In this document: positions 4,051 through 39,245 of the stretch, piece by piece
Layout: each line of letters opens with the position of its first letter
How positions within the stretch are numbered: position 1 is the stretch's first letter
Source: Armatimonadota bacterium
GTDB taxonomy: Bacteria; Armatimonadota; Fimbriimonadia; Fimbriimonadales; Fimbriimonadaceae
Reading direction: 5' to 3'
DNA: 39,245 nt
Assembly (NCBI GenBank): GCA_025363835.1
Contig: JANYLD010000277.1
Location: 1-39,245 of the forward strand
Position numbers and translations under genes: made by a program
Notes under the pieces: generated by a model
What the model saw: the letters and a program-made list of their open reading frames with translations, nothing else
Database searches by the model: none
Told to the model about the DNA's origin: nothing

Positions 4051-4077
4051 CCATCCACCCCGCGGAGGGGTGGATGG
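4051..4077. repeat. Palindromic repeat (11-bp arms), copy 1
   Basis: CCATCCACCCC, a 5-nt loop and GGGGTGGATGG form a perfect 11-bp hairpin. A nearly identical copy stands at 4128-4154, both in the divergent gap between the beta-propeller gene and the helicase gene. Confidence 0.85.
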
Positions 4078-4127
4078 ATGTGGTTCTCGTTGGCATAGGG
4101 AGGTGGTTCTGCTCCGAAAAACCTGGA

Positions 4128-4154
4128 CCATCCACCCCGTGGAGGGGTGGATGG
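4128..4154. repeat. Palindromic repeat (11-bp arms), copy 2
   Basis: The arms equal those of copy 1 and the loop differs by one base (GTGGA against GCGGA). The helicase reading frame extends into this hairpin if the first ATG (4147) is used, which argues for the downstream start at 4186. Confidence 0.85.
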
Positions 4155-4185: not shown

Positions 4186-6246
4186 ATGTCTACGGCCCGG
4201 CAGCTTATCGAAAAGGCGTTCGAGCGCTTAGAAGCGATGCCCGGCTACGTCCGAAGGAACGACCAGCTCCAGCTCGCCCTCCTTCTTTCGGACCTCATCG
4301 ATGGAAAGTCGACCGGCATCTTCGAGGCCCCCACCGGCCTCGGTAAATCGCTCGCTTCGCTCATCCCCGCCATCGCCCACGGCATTGCAGACAAGACGCG
4401 AGTGGTCATCTCCACGTACACCAATGTGCTTGCGGAGCAGTATTACAAGCGTGACCTACCGCTCGCGCTAAGCCTCTTCGAAGCCGTAGACGTAGCGGCG
4501 CTCAAGACCCAGTTCCTCATCGGGCGTCAGCGCTACGCCTGCAAAGCAGCCCTCGAGCAGGCGGACGGAAGCATCAGCGAGAGGTTCCAGGATGTCGCCG
4601 AGCTTGGCATAGAAACAGAGTTCAACCAAGCCTTCGCCAAAGGGAAGGGCTTGCTCAAGATGTGGCAGACGATCTCTGTTCCGCCCGTTTGCCCAGGGCG
4701 CCTCTGTCCGCAGTACAACGACTGTTACTACTATCGCGCCCGCCGCCAAGCCGAGCGCGCAACGCTTGTGATCACCAACCACAGCGTGGTCATCCAAGAC
4801 GCCATCCTCGCTTCCCAATCCGTGGAAGGCAAGGGTTTGCTGGGCCAATTTGATTTCCTCCTCCTCGACGAAGCCCACGATCTCTACGCGGCAGCAACCG
4901 GGGGGCTCGAATTTGAGCTCAGTGAGAAGAAGCTCAGCATGCTCGCAGGAGTGGTCAATAAGCTGGAAGAGACGCTTATCTCCACAGCAGGCCCGGCTGG
5001 GGACAGCCGAGAATGGATGAAGCATTGCGAGGATTTGAGACAGAAGCTCGATCGACTCAAGGTCGACTTGCTTTCCTATTCCATGGAAGTCGGCCGACCC
5101 GGCATCTTGGCGGCTTCGCCGGCGGAAGTGTGGGACCACCCGGCCGTCAAACAGCACCACTCCGGTCAGAACGTAGATTCCTCGCGCTCGATTGCGGATA
5201 CCGCAGGCTCTTCCCTGGAGGAATTCCTGCAAGCCGCCTATCGGCTCCTAGAGCGGTGGAAGGAGGAAGGGGTCGGCTATGAAACGGTCGAGTCAGCCCG
5301 TAACTACCTCACGTACCTGGACAGTTACGCCCTCGGCTGCCGCTCACTTTTCGATCCCAAAGGAGTCGCGGTCAGCTATTTGGGGATGAACGGCACGGCA
5401 AGCCACCTAAAACAGGACGCCATCGACATCTCCGAGCCGATGCAGTCCCTCCTCTGGGACCGGGGCCCATGGGCATGCATGTCAGCCACTCTCGCTCTGG
5501 ACGGCACTTTCGACCACTTCAAACGCCTGGTCGGCGCCACGCCCGCCTTTGAAGAGATTCTGCCGACCCCCTTCGATTTCAGCACCCAAGCCGCCCTCTA
5601 TCTTCCCGCGGCCGGCTCGATTCCCGATCCAACCATCGCTAGAAAACAGGGTTTGGAGGACGAGTACTACCGAGCCGTCGCCCGCGAGCTTTCGCGAATT
5701 ATTATGGCCATGAACGGCCGCACGCTGGCTCTCTTCCACAGCCGGAAGGAGATGGAAGGAGTGATGGGTTATATGAGCGTCCCCTCAGACTTGCCCATTC
5801 TCATCCAAAGCAGATCCGGCGCGGGCGCGGTCGGACAGAAGTTTGTTGAGGACATCAACTCTTCTCTCTTCGCCCTTCGCTCCTTTTGGACGGGATTCGA
5901 CGCCCCCGGCGAGACGCTTTCCTGCGTCGCCGTGGTCCGCGTGCCGTTCGAAGTCCCCATCGACCCCGCTCCGATCGCCCGCATGGCCTGGCTGCACTGC
6001 CAGGGCCAAGACCCGTTCCAAAGCCACACGCTGCCCGCCGCGAAAATGATGATGCGTCAGGGGGTCGGACGCCTCATCCGGAGAGCCGAGGATCGAGGCA
6101 TCATCGCCCTCCTCGACGCCCGCTTGAAAACTAAGCGATACGGAGAAGAAATCCTCGACAACCTCCCTCCGGACATGCGCACGTTCGAAGAAATCGACCT
6201 CGCAGTGGACTGGATCGGGTTAAGCGACCCTGTTCTCATCGCCTAG
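4186..6246 (+). CDS. DinG/XPD-like ATP-dependent DNA helicase (Fe-S)
   Basis: Superfamily 2 helicases of this type unwind DNA 5' to 3' and act in repair and R-loop or replication-conflict processing. The 686-residue product has Walker A APTGLGKS (about 47-54), four cysteines placed as in the XPD/DinG Fe-S domain (RYAC, PPVC, RLC, NDC; about 119-181), the DEAH box LLLDEAHDLY (about 220-229), MSATLALDG in the second motor domain, and motif VI RQGVGRLIRR near the C-terminus. Start ATG 4186 gives an N-terminus close to the family norm; the earlier ATG lies in a palindrome. Whether it is the DinG orthologue or the related YoaA type is not clear, so I leave the symbol blank. Confidence 0.9.
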   Translation: MSTARQLIEKAFERLEAMPGYVRRNDQLQLALLLSDLIDGKSTGIFEAPTGLGKSLASLIPAIAHGIADKTRVVISTYTNVLAEQYYKRDLPLALSLFEAVDVAALKTQFLIGRQRYACKAALEQADGSISERFQDVAELGIETEFNQAFAKGKGLLKMWQTISVPPVCPGRLCPQYNDCYYYRARRQAERATLVITNHSVVIQDAILASQSVEGKGLLGQFDFLLLDEAHDLYAAATGGLEFELSEKKLSMLAGVVNKLEETLISTAGPAGDSREWMKHCEDLRQKLDRLKVDLLSYSMEVGRPGILAASPAEVWDHPAVKQHHSGQNVDSSRSIADTAGSSLEEFLQAAYRLLERWKEEGVGYETVESARNYLTYLDSYALGCRSLFDPKGVAVSYLGMNGTASHLKQDAIDISEPMQSLLWDRGPWACMSATLALDGTFDHFKRLVGATPAFEEILPTPFDFSTQAALYLPAAGSIPDPTIARKQGLEDEYYRAVARELSRIIMAMNGRTLALFHSRKEMEGVMGYMSVPSDLPILIQSRSGAGAVGQKFVEDINSSLFALRSFWTGFDAPGETLSCVAVVRVPFEVPIDPAPIARMAWLHCQGQDPFQSHTLPAAKMMMRQGVGRLIRRAEDRGIIALLDARLKTKRYGEEILDNLPPDMRTFEEIDLAVDWIGLSDPVLIA

Positions 6247-6262
6247 GTTTGGTCGCGACGCC

Positions 6263-6346
6263 GGGATGCGAGATGCGAGATGGGAGATGCGGGATGCGGG
6301 ATTCGAGATGCGAGATGCGGAATTCGTGATTCGTGATTCGTTATGC
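6263..6346 (+). repeat. Heptanucleotide array, GATGCGA family (12 units)
   Basis: There are twelve 7-nt units of GAGATGC and variants (GGGATGC, GGGATTC, GTGATTC). It begins 17 nt after the helicase stop. The same family forms part of a similar composite at 30327. Confidence 0.9.
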
Positions 6347-6365
6347 GCCAGTCTTCGCTAGAGTT

Positions 6366-6440
6366 GAATCCTGAATCCTGAATCCTGAATCCTGAATCCT
6401 GAATCCTGAATCCTGAATCCTGAATCCTGAATCCTGAATC
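6366..6440 (+). repeat. Heptanucleotide array, GAATCCT (10 perfect units plus partial)
   Basis: Ten identical GAATCCT units are followed by GAATC. Perfect identity suggests recent expansion, so copy number may differ between strains. Downstream is a CGAGCARTC segment also present after the shorter GAATCCT array at 30381. The remaining gap to 6617 holds a TATACT hexamer at 6574-6579 and no other clear feature. Confidence 0.95.
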
Positions 6441-6617
6441 GAGCAGTCGGCAATCAAAAATCGAGCAATCCCGACTCCCGAACTCGCACGAACTTGTGAC
6501 AAAGTCGCTAAAGCGGCCGTCTAAAAAATGAAACAAGAATCAGAACCGTTATCAAGCTAAACGCTAGCTGCCCTATACTAGAGATTGGCGGACGCGGAAC
6601 CGGTCCGGTGAACAACC

Positions 6618-7442
6618 ATGATTATCTGTCCTTGGTGCGGCCAACAAACTAAATCAGACGCCGTCTGCGATTGGTGCAAGCGGCCGCTTGACCGCAAGGT
6701 CGCTCCTCCTCCTGGCGCCCGCAGCGATCTGGACTTTCTAAAAGACGAATCGGAAGTTGACCGCTACGGCATTCTGAAAATAGCTGCAGGCGCAGCCTGC
6801 GCCGTCGCGATCGGCGCCGCCCTTTACTTTGTCCTCTTCCATCAGTCCAACGAAACAGCGGTAGCCCAAACCGGCGGAGCCGCTCAGCAAACTGCAACTC
6901 CTGTGGTCTCCTCCACCACCGTTCCGCCTGCCAGACTTGTCTTCCAGCCGCAGTTCCGCGATCACACCGAGGAGTTCTGGCTAAACAACTTCGATGTCTC
7001 AAACGCCAGGGGTGCAAACTGGACGAACGCGCAGCCTCCAGCTCGGGGCAGCGCAAACGTCCCCGTGAACTTTGCAATGAACTCTCCCGTTAAGTTGCAG
7101 AACGTAGAAATGACCATGATTTCCCTGCCAGGGAACGTGAAACGCGTCGCTGGCCGAGCGGACATCGTCAACACATCGGACAAGAACGTCGTCGACTATC
7201 GCATAGAGCTCGTTTGGGCCGCCAACGACTATTCGATGATGCCCCTTCAAGGAACCCAGGAGGCCCTCCACCAGGTTTACCAGCGAGCCTTGCGGCCAGG
7301 TAAGAAAATGGCGGTTCAACTGGTGTCTCTGAAGATCAAAAACAGGCCGGAAGGCACGCCCAACGCCGTGCGGCTCACCGCATGGCTAGACGGAAGTCCG
7401 GGCACGGGCGTAGACGAGTATCAACTTCAGTTCAGCCACTAG
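6618..7442 (+). CDS. Zinc-ribbon membrane protein of unknown function
   Basis: The 274-residue product starts with a zinc ribbon, CPWC (residues 4-7) and CDWC (17-20), then a linker, one transmembrane helix (about 54-73) and an Ala/Thr/Val-rich stretch. A C-terminal domain of about 170 residues follows, rich in beta-strand patterns (VNFAMNSPVKLQNVEMTMIS; VAGRADIVNTSDKNVVDYRIEL). The last part resembles FxLyD or other Ig-like domains that follow membrane-anchored zinc ribbons in unrelated bacteria, but I cannot assign it. ATG 6618 is chosen because it opens the zinc ribbon. A TATACT hexamer lies 38 nt upstream. The 3' end overlaps the convergent lpxC gene by 11 bp. Confidence 0.75.
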   Translation: MIICPWCGQQTKSDAVCDWCKRPLDRKVAPPPGARSDLDFLKDESEVDRYGILKIAAGAACAVAIGAALYFVLFHQSNETAVAQTGGAAQQTATPVVSSTTVPPARLVFQPQFRDHTEEFWLNNFDVSNARGANWTNAQPPARGSANVPVNFAMNSPVKLQNVEMTMISLPGNVKRVAGRADIVNTSDKNVVDYRIELVWAANDYSMMPLQGTQEALHQVYQRALRPGKKMAVQLVSLKIKNRPEGTPNAVRLTAWLDGSPGTGVDEYQLQFSH

Positions 7443-11510: not shown

Positions 11511-13292
11511 TTAGAATGACGTCCCAATAAGGAAGTGCGTACGGCTCTTACCCTTTTCGTTGAAGCCCAAGTCGAGACGAATTGGACCGAGCGGCGTTCG
11601 AAAGCTCACGCCGACGCCGTAGCCAATATGAAGGTCGGGCTTGGTCGACTGAGTGAAGCTTCCCACCGTCCCGTAGCCGCCCCACGCTCCACCGTAATCC
11701 ACGAAGCCAATGACATTCATAGATTTCTGGATCGGATACCGGTACTCGGCCGTGCTCAAGAACATTTGGCTGCCCCAGAAGCGATCTTCGTCGTAGCCGC
11801 GCAACGTGTCGGATCCCCCGGCGAAGAACTGTTCAAAGAACGGCGCCCGGCCGTTGATCTCGCCATAGCGAACCCGCAGGGCAAGAACTCGGCGAGGCTC
11901 GGCCAGATCTTTGAGGCGAGGCGGCTGTTTCGTAAAGTAGCGCCTGTATTCAAGGAACGACTTCACGTACGTCGAATGCCCAAGCAACGAATTGCCAACG
12001 GCTCCGCCGGCCTCCGTGATGTTCGCAAAGCCAGGCTGCGCTTCGGCGTGGATCCAATCACCTCGGGAGGGGTCGATGTCCGTGTCCCGTTTATTTCTCG
12101 TGAGGCCAAGCGTTATCGAGTTGAGGTTGCCGTCCTGCTTGATGAAGTCATTTGGGTTGGTGGCCTGTATGTCGCCAGTTTTGACCGTCTCACTGCGAAG
12201 GCCGAGAGAGAAAGTCGTGTCGTCATTAAACGGCCTCTGGAAGCCGAGCGCTCCGCCGGTTCGGCGTTCGATGTACTGCCTGCCCGCCGTTGGGTTCGCC
12301 GCTCCTCCGAATCCGGTCCCCGTGAACCTATAGATAACGTGGCTGTACAGAGCCGCGCTCATGCTTGTGTCGTGGTGGTCTATAAAGGGATTGCCGTAGT
12401 CGAGGTCGACGCTCGTTCCGCCGCCTTGAGTCGACTGAAGGATGCTTACCCCCACGTTCTGTCCGGTTCCTCTGAAGTTCGGGTCCGATACCTTAACAAA
12501 GCCTGCGAGCGTGCTTCTCGGGTCCAACTGGAGACCGATGTTGAACGTCCCTGTCTTGGTCTCTTTCAGAACCGCGGTGAGGTCCACTTTGCCGGGATCG
12601 CTCCCCGTGTCGTTGCGGCTTTCCACTGACTCAAACCATTGCGTCCCGTAAAGTCTGCGGAGATCGTTTTGCCACTTGGTCAGGTTGAAGGGATCGCCCG
12701 GTTTGGTCTTAATCAGACGCCGGAGAACACTTTCTTTGGTGCGCCCGTCTTTGTCTTCGATATTGATCTTCTCAACGGAGGCCTCGGTAATGGCAACGTT
12801 GAGGGTATTGGGTGATTCTTGGAGCGGAGCAAAGTCTGCGACGAGGGCAAAGAAGCCCTTTTTCTTATACAGATTCTCAATGTTCGTGGTGCTCGGATTT
12901 CGTTGATTGAGGTTGTAGATGTCCCCCGGCTTGAGCGTAATTGCCTTCATGATCTCGTCGGTCGCTATCGCCTTGTTTCCGGTAACCCGGATCTCTTTGA
13001 TCTGCGGGTACTCAGAGACGATTACCGCGACTCGCCAGTCATTGCTCACCGATTCGGCGTGAACGTCCACCGCCTGGAAGAAGCCTAGGTTCTCAATCGC
13101 GAGCTTGTCCTGATCCAAGCTTTCTTGAACGTAGGGCTGCCCGACCTTGGTTCGCATAGCAGCCAGGATCGCTTCACGAGAAACGTGCTGATTGCCTTGA
13201 ACGACGATGTCTTTTATGACGCCCGTTCCTTGGGCTCCTGCCACTACCACCGTGAGTAGCAGCGAAACGATCATCCAGATCCTTAAAACCAA
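11511..13292 (-). CDS. bamA: Outer membrane protein assembly factor BamA (Omp85)
   Basis: BamA inserts beta-barrel proteins into the outer membrane. The product has a signal peptide (WMIVSLLLTVVVAGAQG), three POTRA domains in the first 250 or so residues (IKDIVVQGNQHVSREAILAA; IKEIRVTGNKAIATDEIMKA; VEKINIEDKDGRTKESVLRR), and a 16-strand barrel domain with the SDTLRGYDEDRFWG motif of the L6 loop, GPIRLDLGF and a C-terminal Phe. Three POTRAs are fewer than the five of proteobacteria. I choose TTG 13292 (593 residues) because GGAGGAGG lies 6 nt upstream; the frame could open at TTG 13331 or shorten to ATG 13274. It sits between tamB and the two OmpH genes, consistent with a single envelope operon. 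Confidence 0.95.
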   Translation of the reverse strand: MVLRIWMIVSLLLTVVVAGAQGTGVIKDIVVQGNQHVSREAILAAMRTKVGQPYVQESLDQDKLAIENLGFFQAVDVHAESVSNDWRVAVIVSEYPQIKEIRVTGNKAIATDEIMKAITLKPGDIYNLNQRNPSTTNIENLYKKKGFFALVADFAPLQESPNTLNVAITEASVEKINIEDKDGRTKESVLRRLIKTKPGDPFNLTKWQNDLRRLYGTQWFESVESRNDTGSDPGKVDLTAVLKETKTGTFNIGLQLDPRSTLAGFVKVSDPNFRGTGQNVGVSILQSTQGGGTSVDLDYGNPFIDHHDTSMSAALYSHVIYRFTGTGFGGAANPTAGRQYIERRTGGALGFQRPFNDDTTFSLGLRSETVKTGDIQATNPNDFIKQDGNLNSITLGLTRNKRDTDIDPSRGDWIHAEAQPGFANITEAGGAVGNSLLGHSTYVKSFLEYRRYFTKQPPRLKDLAEPRRVLALRVRYGEINGRAPFFEQFFAGGSDTLRGYDEDRFWGSQMFLSTAEYRYPIQKSMNVIGFVDYGGAWGGYGTVGSFTQSTKPDLHIGYGVGVSFRTPLGPIRLDLGFNEKGKSRTHFLIGTSF

Positions 13293-13492
13293 ACGATTCC
13301 TCCTCCAGCCGAGCAACGCCGCAACGCTCAAGCAGGCGGCTTCCCCGGCAATTTACCTGGGGACCTTTTGAAAAGGTTCCTAGGTGGGCATACGAGAGTG
13401 CAGGTTCGCAAGAATTGCACTACTACGGCCTCGCAATTTTTCTCGCCGCGTCTTTGCCCTAAGCATATGATGCGCGAGCGGCCGTATCGTTT

Positions 13493-16400
13493 TCAAAATC
13501 GGAACCCATACTGCAGTCCCACCTTCCAAGGGCGGTCTTGGTCAATGCCGATATTAAACGAAGTGTTCCGCAGTGCTTTGCCTTTAAAGGGCAGGCGATA
13601 GACGAGCCGAAAGTCGAATTGCTGCTTGGAGCCTGGAAGGGGTTCTGATATCTGCCGCGTCCCCTGCAGGCTCAAAGTTCGGCTCACGTCCTTGGAGAAA
13701 GACAAATAAACCTGGCTCAATGTCCCGTATTCAACGTTCAGATAGTCGAGTCCCAGCCCCTTGGCGAAAGCGTTCGTGATCGGCGATAGCAGAGCGGGGA
13801 CCGCGTAGCCCGCAAGAGCGTTTCTCAAGTCTTTGCTCGCCTCAAATTTGGTGGCACTTCCTGCGAGCGCGGCTATGAGGTCCGCTTGGCCCAGGAGTGC
13901 AAGGATTCGGTCCTGTCCAAGCCCGGGCGGGTCGCTTTCAGCGGTTATGAACGTTTGCCCATTCTGCAGGAGGTCGCCCTTGACGTTCAGGGTGATATCG
14001 TAGTGCTGTGGGATGTCGCCGTATGCAGCAGTCGTAAGGCTCGTACGGCCCACCAGATCGACCATAAGGCTCGCCAACGTATCACCGCTAGGGTCAGTCC
14101 TGTAGCGGAGTTTGACAGTCCCTCCCGGGTCGATGCGAACCGATGAAGTCGGCAACTTGATCGTGCCGCCCATGACGGTCAAGTCAGAGGTGACCGCCGG
14201 AGCGTTCAGCGAGCCGGTCAGGGCGCCGTTTCCGATCATCCTGAGCCTTGCGAGACTGGTCGCGATCGTCGCCGTATCGGTCAGATCCAGCTTCACGTTA
14301 AAGCGCGGATCGATCACGTATTCGGGCGCCGAAGCAGTGGTGACGTCCCAACTGGGCAGTAGGGTGTTCACTCCACTCATCGAAGCGCTGCCCGTTATCT
14401 GCGGAGTTCTAAGCGGCCCTGCCACATTGATGTTCGCGTTGGCAGTGGCAACTAAGCGCCCGTTGTCTCCCCCGTCGTACTTGATTCCAAAATTGTGGAG
14501 GGTCAACCCGCCATCGACCGTCCGATCGAGAAGGGCCTGAACTCCACGGGAACTCAACTCCTTGATCCGATCCGTGACGTCCCCGATGGGCGCCCTGACG
14601 TTAGCGGAGACGGCTCCTCCCTGGGAACTCGTGGCGTCGAAATTGAGGCTGACATTGTCCGAGTCGACGGTTGCCTTCGCAGTCGCGTCGGTCAGGCTCG
14701 TTTGAACCTTCTTGAGGGCGAATGAAGACGCCTGCGCTGTTACCTGGCCGTTCAATTTGGCGCCCCCGACCGGGCCAGTGAGAGCCAGATGCCCGGCGAC
14801 CGTTCCCTTGGTTCTCGCAAGGTCTATTCCTGGGATGTACTCGCTCAAAGACGATAACTCTCTGGACGGCAAGTCAAGGGCAATCGAGAGTGGCTCCCCT
14901 TGAGGCAGAGTCAGAGGGTATTTCAGGGGTAGTTGTGCCGTCAGGTTGCCCTCAAAACCGCGGTAAAAGAGCTTTCCGGACGCTTCAATTCCACCCGCCA
15001 AAGTTCCGTCTGAGCGGGGAGTCGACTCGCTGATATTGATGGTGTCTAGCACCATTCCGAACACGAGCTGTTTGGCCTGACTGGTCGGATCCGTGGCCAA
15101 GGAGGTTCTGCTTGCGTCGAGCGAGGCCTGGACGACCGGACTCCTAGTTGGACCCGAAACGGCAAACGACAAGCCTGCGCGGCCGCTCACGCGTGTGAGA
15201 TTGTCGTCCGCGATGGAGAGGAGAGACAGGTCTACGTTGGTGAGGTCACCGTCGTACTTGACGTCGCCGTTCTCGTCGACGACACCCGAGGATTGGAGCA
15301 CGCCTGCCGGGCCCTGCCAATGGAGCTGAGCAACCGTCCAGAGCGGACCCTTCTTCGTAAACTTCGTATTGACCGCGCCCAGATCGCGACCCTCCAGATT
15401 GAGCCCGGTCAGGTCTAGCGTATTGACGTTAACGTCCGGTTTTTGAAGCGGGCCCGAAATCGAGGCTTGTGCATCGAAAACTCCTTCGACTCTCAAGAGG
15501 CGAGACTCGACGTCGCTGGTGGGCGGGGGGATGTACCTTTGAACCGCACTGTAAATGTCCTGAAGAGGGATGTGATAGGCGGTGAAATCGGCGGAAATGG
15601 ACTTCGCGTCCCGGTCAACCGCAAGGTTGCTGAGGTCCAGGTATCGCTCGAGGGTTCCGATCTGGGCAGAGCCAGAGAAGCCCTTAGGGCTCATCCCCGC
15701 TGTCCACGAGCCGCTGCCGACCAAGGTCTGGTTGATCTCCACGTCGGAAAGATTTCCGCTAGCGTTCGCGTAGCGAACCTCCGCGCCCGAAGTGGTGACA
15801 ACCGCAATCCCGGCAACCTTGCCATCGATGCTCGCCGTTTTATTGAGCTCGGGGGCCAAGTCCGATAGAGAAATGTTGGTGCCGGAGAGCTCGATCCGAG
15901 CTTGCTTGCTTTTTATGTTGCCCGAAGCTGAGGCCGCCAGAGTCCCGCCCGCAAAGTCCGCCCGAATCTCGGGAATCTTAAAATCATTTCCCCGAAGGGC
16001 GAGGGTTGCCCGCCCCTTGCCGATCGGGCGCCCGGCCACAACCAGGCCGTGGGTCTCCAAAGAAGCGTCCACGATAGGGTTTTTCACGGTGCCGCCGAGA
16101 GTCGCCTTGGGCACACTAACGATCCCGGATAATTGGTTACTGAGTTCAGAAACCGGTAAGTTTGCGGCAGAAAAGCTACCGTTCAAAGACCCACTTCCAA
16201 GAGCATAGCTCAGGTTTCCCGAGGCCTGAGCCGCCCCGCGGACTGCCTGCAGGCCTGTCGCCTTCAGAGCAGTTTTGTTAAGGTCCAGGTCGGCAATGAC
16301 GAACGGTATAAAGCGTTGGCCGAAGGTCAGGCCCAATATCTGTGCTTTGCCTCTAAGGTCCGGATTTGTGGGCGTGCCACTAACCTCGCCGCTGAAGCTT

Positions 16401-17389
16401 CCGGTTCCCGTGAGAGACGGCGAGAAGGCGGCCAACGAGATCCCGCGCGCGGCGAGCTTCAGAGCGAGCCGTCCATTGGAGTTCGCGTGCCCGGTCACGG
16501 CAGCCGTCCCAGTTGGCGTGTTGACTGAAAGCGTGGTCAAGTTCAGCCCTGAGTTGGCGTAGGATCCAGCGCCCTCGAACGTGCCTCTGAGCGTCTTGGA
16601 AGCACTCTTCGCCTGAAAGGCGATATTGCCGGAGGCCCGAAAGCTAGCAGTAGGAGCATTGACCGTCCCACTCAAGATGGCAACCCCGTCGCCCGACCCG
16701 GAAAGACCCTGAATGTGAACGGCTCGGCCAAGGGAAGCCAACTCCACTTTGCCTCCCGCAACTTGTCCCATGATCCGTTGGCCGGTGGGGTAATAGGCGA
16801 TCGAGCCCGTGAACGGCGAGCCCTGCCAGATTCCGCTCGCCCCCTCGACTCGGACGAGGCCACTTCCGGCCCGAACTAGACCGTGCGCTGATGTAACGCC
16901 TTGGCCTCCCAGAGTGAGGCGAGCGGCCTGCAAGCTACCGTCGTAGCGAATGCCATCGAGCTTGTCGTAGCTCAACCACCCTTGTCCGCTGGAGTCAGAA
17001 AAGGATAAGTTGGCCGGTATAAACTTGACAATGGACTCCGGGATGTCGCTCTTTGCAGCGATGGATGCGGTCACTGTTCCCGCAAACTGGGCCCCATTGG
17101 TCCATTCGGTCGCGCCCACGAACTTGGCGCTGCCCCCGGCCCGAGTCAACACGAGCGTCCCTGTTGCTCCATTGCCGGTAACCAGTCCATTGAAATCAGC
17201 GGCATCGAAGCGATCCTTTCCGCCATAGATAACGTTTGTGCCGCGAGCATTTAGAGAAGCGGCCATGAGCCAAGGCTTCTTATCGGGAATATAGAGCCGC
17301 ACTGGCCCTCGAGCGATGAATTTGCTCGCCGTGACATTTTTCAGGGCTCCCAACCCTCGTCCCTCAGGCGTCGTCCTGAAATGATTCAC
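13493..17389 (-). pseudogene. tamB: TamB-like translocation/assembly protein, main C-terminal part (frameshifted)
   Basis: TamB/YhdP-type proteins are long beta-groove bridges that span the periplasm, helping barrel assembly or phospholipid transport. This 1298-residue frame consists of many repeated beta-strand blocks with Gly/Asn/Ser turns (SGxISxxK-like) and ends in the DUF490/TamB C-terminal domain (RTLSLQGTRQISEP ... KVGLQYGFRF) with a terminal aromatic residue. It has no signal or anchor of its own. The missing N-terminus is the preceding reading frame at 17398-18060. The -1 frame is open from 17449 downwards, before the GTG used here, and reads on smoothly (LFHRVGQALDLTNAVNHF). I therefore read the two as one gene broken by a single frameshift. 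Reinitiation at GTG 17389, or programmed -1 frameshifting, are the alternatives. Confidence 0.8.
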
Positions 17390-17427
17390 CGCGTTGGTCA
17401 GGTCAAGGGCCTGACCAACGCGGTGAA
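17385..17427. repeat. Perfect 18-bp inverted repeat at the tamB frameshift
   Basis: Arms 17385-17402 and 17410-17427 are exact reverse complements (TTCACCGCGTTGGTCAGG) around a 7-nt loop. The hairpin spans the stop codon of the upstream frame (17398-17400) and the first codon of the downstream frame (17387-17389). No T-run follows on either strand, so it is not a standard terminator. Confidence 0.95.
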
Positions 17428-18060
17428 AGAGATCAGTAGGCCAGAGCCTTTATACCGCTGTACTGCGGCATCCGCTATTCCAACGCCCGGCATCGTCAAT
17501 TGCCCCGACGCCACCCAATCTTGTCCCCACCCCTCCACCATCAGTTGATTGCTGATAGCGCGCTGCTCAAATTGGTTGGCGCCGGAGAGGTCTTCATAAA
17601 CTACGTTCGCACCATCGATGCGGACGCGGTAAGGACGGTTCTGGGTTTGAGGGGTTTGCTCGGGCAGGTACTCCTCAAGAGCGAAATGCCCGTTCTTGAG
17701 GCGTACCAGCCGGCCATTAAAGTTGCGAACGACGGCATCAATCGTATCGTTGCCGCCGAGCCGCAACCCGGTGATTCGCGCCGACGCAGCGTCGGCCAGC
17801 AAACTGCCATTAACGTCCTGCAATCGCGGCTCGATCACGTGCAAGGTCCCACTCTCCCACAGGAAGTTGTAGCTCCGCGCAGTGATGTGAAGAAGAGCGC
17901 CTTTGCGCGCCTGGTACGTGAAATCGATGCCTGTACCGGGAGCGGCCAGCATCCGGAAGCATTCACGCAGGAAGATGTATCCCCTGAAGGCAATCAGCAG
18001 AGGCAAAAGGATGATCGCCACTCGGAAGAGGCGGAAGAAGACTTTTGCGAACCTATCCAT
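17398..18060 (-). pseudogene. tamB: TamB-like protein, N-terminal part (membrane anchor)
   Basis: This 220-residue frame has a basic start, a transmembrane helix (about 12-30, VAIILLPLLIAFRGYIFLR) and then the AsmA/TamB-like opening beta blocks (LHITARSYNFLWESGTLHV; VRIDGANVVYEDLSG). That is the usual N-terminus of a TamB protein: inner-membrane anchor, then periplasmic beta-groove. It ends at a TGA (17398-17400) 8 nt before the next frame. The last 15 or so residues look like out-of-frame sequence. The gene begins 32 nt after lipA, so it should share its transcript. An alternative reading is two separate proteins made by coupled translation. Confidence 0.75.
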
Positions 18061-18092: not shown

Positions 18093-18986
18093 TTAGACGG
18101 CTTGGGCGTCAAGCTGTTGCAAGCGATCGGCCATGATTTTCTTGGAAAACTCGATTGCGTTGTAGGAAGAGCGGATAAACGGCCCGCTCGCGACGAAAAC
18201 AAAGCCCAAGTCCCCGCCGATCTTCTCGTACTCTTTAAACTCATCCGGGTGGATGAAGGTATTAACGGGTAGGTGCTTCATGGTCGGCCTCAGATATTGG
18301 CCGATGGTCACGGCGTCCACTCCAATTTCGCGCAAATCTTCCAGGGTCTTGACCACTTCATCTCGTGTTTCACCAAGTCCGAGCATGATTCCGGACTTGG
18401 TATGGATGGTGGGGTCCAGTTCCTTCACCGTTTTAAGCACGCCCAATGTTCGCTCGTATTTTGCTTGGGGGCGTACCACGGTGTGTAATCGCTCGACGGT
18501 TTCGATGTTGTGATTGTAAATATCCGGTCTCGCGTCGGTCACGTTTTGGATGCACCACCGTTTGCCTTTGAAGTCAGGGGTGAGCACTTCGACGATCGTG
18601 AGGGGGTTCACCTTGCGCAAAGCTTTGATCGTTTCCGCGAATTGCATCGAGCCCTCATCGGCCAGGTCGTCCCTGGCAACGCTGGTGACGACCACGTGTT
18701 TCAGACCCAAATCGTTCGTGACATTGGCAACGTTTTCCGGCTCGTTCGCGTCCACTTGCAGGCCCCTTCCAACTTTGATGGCGCAGAAGCCGCAGCTCCT
18801 CGTGCAGGTGTCTCCCAAGATCATGAAGGTCGCGGTTTTTTTGCTCCAGCACTCCGGCAGGTTCGGACACCGAGCAGACTCGCAGACCGTGTGGAGGTTC
18901 TTGGACCTCATCATTTCCTCAACCTGTTTGATGGTGTCCGGTCGAGGCAGCCGAATGGTGAGCCACTCGGGAAGGCGCTGGGTCAT
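18093..18986 (-). CDS. lipA: Lipoyl synthase
   Basis: LipA inserts two sulfurs into protein-bound octanoyl chains to make lipoyl cofactor, using S-adenosylmethionine radicals. The 297-residue product has the auxiliary Fe-S motif CESARCPNLPEC (about 35-46), the radical-SAM motif CTRSCGFC (about 61-68), the conserved VVVTSVARDDLAD segment, GLGET and the C-terminal RSSYNA that ligates the auxiliary cluster. All expected residues are present and the length is normal. It is the first gene of the leftward cluster leading into tamB-bamA-lpxD-lpxC, an unusual partner for envelope genes. CATACT stands 7 nt before the ATG, so the transcript is probably leaderless. Confidence 0.97.
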   Translation of the reverse strand: MTQRLPEWLTIRLPRPDTIKQVEEMMRSKNLHTVCESARCPNLPECWSKKTATFMILGDTCTRSCGFCAIKVGRGLQVDANEPENVANVTNDLGLKHVVVTSVARDDLADEGSMQFAETIKALRKVNPLTIVEVLTPDFKGKRWCIQNVTDARPDIYNHNIETVERLHTVVRPQAKYERTLGVLKTVKELDPTIHTKSGIMLGLGETRDEVVKTLEDLREIGVDAVTIGQYLRPTMKHLPVNTFIHPDEFKEYEKIGGDLGFVFVASGPFIRSSYNAIEFSKKIMADRLQQLDAQAV

Positions 18987-39126: not shown

Positions 39127-39178
39127 TTTGGAGTGCGGTGCTTTAGCGCCGCTTTGACCGAGGGCTTTAGCCCGACAA
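39127..39178 (+). repeat. REP-like core, direct copy at right end
   Basis: GGAGTGCGGTGCTTTAGCGC, then GCTTTGACCGAGGGCTTTAG, then CCCGACA: both stems of the units at 584 and 691 are present, without the tail. It shows that the family is dispersed over at least 38 kb. Confidence 0.85.
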
Positions 39179-39223
39179 TGTTGAGTTGTCTAGAGCTCAG
39201 CGAAAAAAACAGAGGCGGCGTAA

Positions 39224-39245
39224 CTTGTCGGGCTAAAGCCCTCGG
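39224..39245 (-). repeat. REP-like core, inverted copy cut by window end
   Basis: CTTGTCGGGCTAAAGCCCTC followed by GG is the reverse complement of the second stem region. It pairs with the direct copy at 39127-39178 across a 45-nt spacer, making another inverted pair. Confidence 0.8.

Follow-up and report, generated by a model that had tools for sequence, protein, structure and literature searches.

The gene for TamB in a member of the Armatimonadota is broken between two reading frames at a perfect 18-bp hairpin, and its sequence and relatives suggest that the lesion is probably the footprint of one template-switch (quasipalindrome) event during replication. The window, meaning the whole 39,245-nt stretch that was analyzed, is contig 292 of a 3.7-Mb draft genome that is 89% complete and divided among 419 contigs. 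Its lipA-like gene most resembles records from the Armatimonadota, mainly the Fimbriimonadales and Fimbriimonadaceae. On the minus strand, this radical SAM gene is followed by tamB, bamA/Omp85, two ompH/skp-like genes, an ORF with no Pfam match, a hexapeptide transferase gene (lpxD-like) and lpxC, and these assignments mark the neighborhood as an outer-membrane assembly cluster (Table 1).

Table 1. Features of the split tamB gene and its neighbors in the window
Feature	Position	Strand	Remarks
Upstream neighbor, a lipA-like (lipoyl synthase) radical SAM gene	18093..18986	-	adjoins tamB in 20 of 29 relatives
N-terminal part of tamB: membrane anchor with the beginning of the periplasmic domain	17401..18060	-	220 codons; TGA 17400-17398
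Upstream arm TTCACCGCGTTGGTCAGG	17410..17427	-	putative template-switch copy; within 17411-17430, the stretch with no homologous counterpart in relatives
Loop CCCTTGA	17403..17409	-	7 nt, between the arms
Downstream arm CCTGACCAACGCGGTGAA	17385..17402	-	conserved TamB coding sequence (D-L-T-N-A-V); putative copy source
tamB main open frame	13493..17449	-	open for 1318 codons from 17449; GTG 17389 is its first start codon
bamA/Omp85 gene, downstream neighbor	11511..13331	-	adjoins tamB in 17 of 29 relatives

The identity of the split gene is established by a C-terminal TamB domain (PF04357) in the main frame, which scores 48.4 bits against a cut-off of 22.4 (1.1e-12). A preliminary description of this DNA had placed the N-terminal anchor frame (17398-18060, 220 aa) and the main frame (13493-17389, 1298 codons) in different reading frames, and this is correct: continuity between anchor and body fails at 17400, where the first frame meets its stop codon. 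The description was also right that the main frame stays open back to 17449 and is TamB-like ahead of its GTG; homology to TamB begins at about 17410. Both frames are thus open over 17449-17400, and they part at the upstream arm of the hairpin rather than at the GTG. Together they account for a protein of ~1520 residues, and the remaining 1518 codons carry no further lesion.

The inverted repeat itself is as first described, with 18 of 18 bp paired around the loop. Its two arms differ in their relation to the TamB family. The downstream arm codes for LDLTNAV, which is conserved and lies in the family register, while the upstream arm is not conserved. We estimated how often such a structure would occur by chance using 300 second-order Markov versions of tamB, scanned for perfect arms with loops of at most 30 nt. 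The longest arm among them was 12 bp, seen once, and extrapolating an approximately fourfold drop per bp gives an expectation for an 18-bp arm of ~2e-6 per gene. A perfect inverted repeat beyond chance expectation therefore lies at the site of the mutation, as template switching predicts. Searching the genome with the arms returned the site itself as the sole match. We rejected a mobile palindromic or interspersed repeat on these grounds, since the arms have no further genomic copies.

Relatives provide the intact form of the gene. The main frame found a match in 59 of the 61 genomes searched, its own included; a protein scan of the genome-contig set with the same query gave no match. With few exceptions, the loci that were read have tamB as a single uninterrupted ORF of ~1500 codons; the split is therefore not characteristic of the family. 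The exceptions are one locus at a contig end and three with a single in-frame TGA in an otherwise open gene (L012 codon 565, L022 codon 1068 and L017 codon 354). These TGAs fall at differing, unrelated positions and may be genuine nonsense mutations, variants of a strain, or errors. The preliminary description had asked whether close relatives carry an intact tamB and a less perfect repeat. In the distant relatives compared here the gene is intact, and none of the 29 loci scanned has arms of at least 11 bp at the join; the few arms of 11-13 bp in these loci all lie away from it.

To place the break against the family, we built a TamB profile from 27 relatives; the relatives compared are 25-38% identical. 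This one profile matches both halves of the split gene, with 174 and 206 bits, at the adjacent positions 10-214 and 220-503, and the main-frame homology continues beyond. The N-terminal part, 38% identical to its closest relative, matches up to residue 210 (nt 17431, position 214), and the main-frame match resumes at nt 17410 (position 220). Between them, 5 residues (15 nt) are expected and 20 nt are present, limits that are good to a few residues because the last residues before the gap align less confidently. The upstream arm coincides with this block, which is alone in matching the family (27 relatives, all distant) in neither frame. A wider spacing count is independent of these block limits. 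The span across the join is 31 residues in 20 of the 27 relatives and 30 in the other 7 (93 or 90 nt), compared to 98 nt in the split gene, a net gain of 5 nt (8 nt relative to the shorter relatives). The comparison of 98 nt with 93 or 90 nt argues that a block was exchanged, and because of the net gain a single lost base fits poorly. The single frameshift first proposed at the hairpin thus stands as to its place, but the change is a net +5-nt block, equivalent in frame to -1, and not the plain loss of one base.

On the most parsimonious reading of this sequence, the downstream arm was copied in inverted form into the place of former coding sequence, giving rise to the upstream arm. DNA polymerase, while copying tamB, would have switched onto the nearby downstream arm in inverted orientation for ~18 nt and then switched back, making two switches with the neighboring arm copied in between. 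A footprint of this kind defines template-switch mutations (PMC7202029; PMC8604942; PMC8794818). Such an event would exchange ~15 nt of the earlier coding sequence for ~20 nt, leaving a perfect 18-bp hairpin and a shifted frame. If the nascent strand itself served as template, synthesis would have run from low to high coordinates. We infer the direction of copying, and also that the change arose in a single event and that it occurred in the cell. The changed block equals the inverted sequence of its neighbor and is absent from the relatives, which are distant, as expected of this process. Quasipalindrome templating, one of several explanations first offered, is therefore the best supported, given that the relatives' genes are intact without such a repeat and that the upstream arm fills the non-homologous block. 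In the context of hairpin repair, a search for SbcD gave one weak, below-cut-off match in this genome and scattered matches among relatives. Because the rest of tamB is intact, the change would be very recent, a minor or strain-confined variant, or made in vitro. A null allele generated by template switching also faces an objection, as this is the sole TamB domain in the assembly. Its fixed loss should come at a cost, barring paralogues that were overlooked or that fall in the ~11% of the genome left unassembled.

The main alternative is that the organism's tamB is intact and the block is an artefact, created when the polymerase switched in library preparation or through a consensus error in a low-coverage part of a metagenome assembly. 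We regard this as distinctly less probable than template switching in the cell, though a serious competitor. The genome is an incomplete draft in many contigs, function is expected of a single-copy gene that is otherwise free of lesions, and the isolated TGA codons in three relatives suggest that errors or strain variants do occur in such drafts. However, foldbacks are uncommon in this assembly. In a 1.08-Mb sample of the genome, perfectly paired arms of at least 15 bp with loops of at most 30 nt occur 13 times, and only 2 of these inverted repeats fall in ORFs of at least 300 codons (0.72 Mb): the tamB repeat and another, in a Pnkp-like gene, which is explained by a repeat family. We rejected a general foldback problem, since widespread foldbacks are not seen in this sample, and with the controls taken together, a mobile palindrome and a general assembly foldback both fail to explain tamB. 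The k-mers usually used for assembly exceed 18 bp, making confusion of the assembly graph by arms of this length unlikely, and the other genes with Pfam matches in the window look full length. Assembly error had been named as the plain alternative from the start. In its simplest form, a one-base error, it is disfavored by the +5 spacing; an origin of the whole block in vitro or in assembly keeps the lesser probability given above.

The Pnkp-like gene owes its hairpin to a palindromic repeat of the GATCCGAG / CTCGGATC type, an interspersed family with 56 genomic matches. The copy lies in frame in this kinase-phosphatase gene (L199:5280-5337; G000 contig 79, ORF 4407-7307) and adds ~25-40 residues that most relatives do not have. 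Another copy lies inside an ORF at L227:7990-8047. A 720-codon ORF contains, at L237:2095-2126, a perfect inverted repeat of 14 bp with a 4-nt loop, possibly a further template-switch site at which the frame was kept. A second palindromic family, CCGAGGGCTTTAGCCCGACAA and its complement, occurs at 692-844 and 39158-39245 of the window and at L179:16545-16640; as the contig ends inside a copy, this repeat probably broke the assembly. The window also contains an inverted repeat with self-palindromic arms, CCATCCACCCCGCGGAGGGGTGGATGG, at 4051-4154 in the gap ahead of a helicase gene at 4147.

It is improbable that the inverted repeat is older and was carried by an intact gene, whose frame was then broken beside it by an independent small indel or an error in base calling. 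Small indels are the commonest sequence error and a hairpin could promote one, but for a one- or two-base error the intact ancestor must have had 33 or 32 residues over this span, whereas all 27 relatives have 30 or 31. It would also take a coincidence to place the break precisely on the upstream arm, which has no match in the family.

Functional recoding is less probable still. Here, -1 frameshifting driven by the hairpin, a short hop, or coupled reinitiation at GTG 17389 would yield a full-length or two-part TamB. The hairpin is strong as a predicted RNA fold (-45 kcal/mol, z = -6.6), both frames are open over 17449-17400, matching ACC codons flank the stop (a hop from ACC 17403 to ACC 17398 skips 2 nt), and the assembly holds no second TamB copy. 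Against this, none of 16 in-frame heptamers fits X XXY YYZ, in agreement with the first impression that no classic slippery heptamer is present, and the hairpin begins inside the recoding zone, not at a distance of 5-9 nt past a slippery site. No Shine-Dalgarno sequence precedes GTG 17389, a weak test given that, by this strict criterion, ATG 18060 of tamB is likewise without one, and a reinitiated product would have no membrane anchor. The two-frame arrangement is also not conserved, as relatives use one frame. Taken together, these points speak against the frameshifting and reinitiation raised in the preliminary description. That the hairpin is tolerated by a non-classical route, an ACC-ACC hop or hairpin-driven bypass, and that the only TamB is made from two frames, is the least credible proposal of all.

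Experiments in E. coli have established template switching that perfects an inverted repeat (PMC7202029), and tamB resembles the quasipalindrome mutations studied there, at the thyA hotspot and in lacZ QP reporters, in that a repeat within a coding gene appears to have been perfected by copying of the other arm. It differs from them in that an imperfect ancestral repeat is only presumed, the arm and the replaced block are long, and the case is known from one draft contig rather than a mutant lineage. Short spacers favor template switching (PMC8604942), and lengthening of a stem by insertion in one arm is a recorded footprint of the process (PMC8794818). In both the multinucleotide switches of yeast genes (PMC8604942) and those of rRNA hairpins (PMC8794818), one arm is copied inverted from the other, and tamB shares the insertion in one half of the stem recorded in this work. 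Those cases were polarized on a phylogeny with close relatives, whereas the tamB case is unpolarized and breaks a reading frame. On this reading the lesion is a clear case, though not an unusual one, of a type of mutation already known, and it calls for no new mechanism. As an example it is readable: template switching would have exchanged a block in a large envelope gene of an uncultured lineage, and family spacing alone, without reads, can tell such an event from a one-base error.

In its single N-terminal anchor, length, C-terminal TamB domain and adjoining bamA/Omp85 gene, the protein resembles the AsmA-like lipid-transport family that includes TamB (PF04357), but here the reading frame is interrupted after residue 220. 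Since the protein would end there, TamB is predicted to be non-functional in the strain represented by this contig; the downstream 1298-residue part, even if translated, would be without a membrane anchor. The assembled genome contains no second TamB domain, and searches of it for AsmA (PF05170) and YhdP (PF13116) gave no match. Because the TamB, YhdP and YdbH proteins of E. coli are redundant with one another but essential as a group (PMC8593681), fixed loss of tamB would be surprising. If the lesion is real in the population, it would make this diderm, in which no further TamB, YhdP or AsmA protein is recognized, a natural tamB null, and would bear on the essentiality of TamB outside the Proteobacteria.
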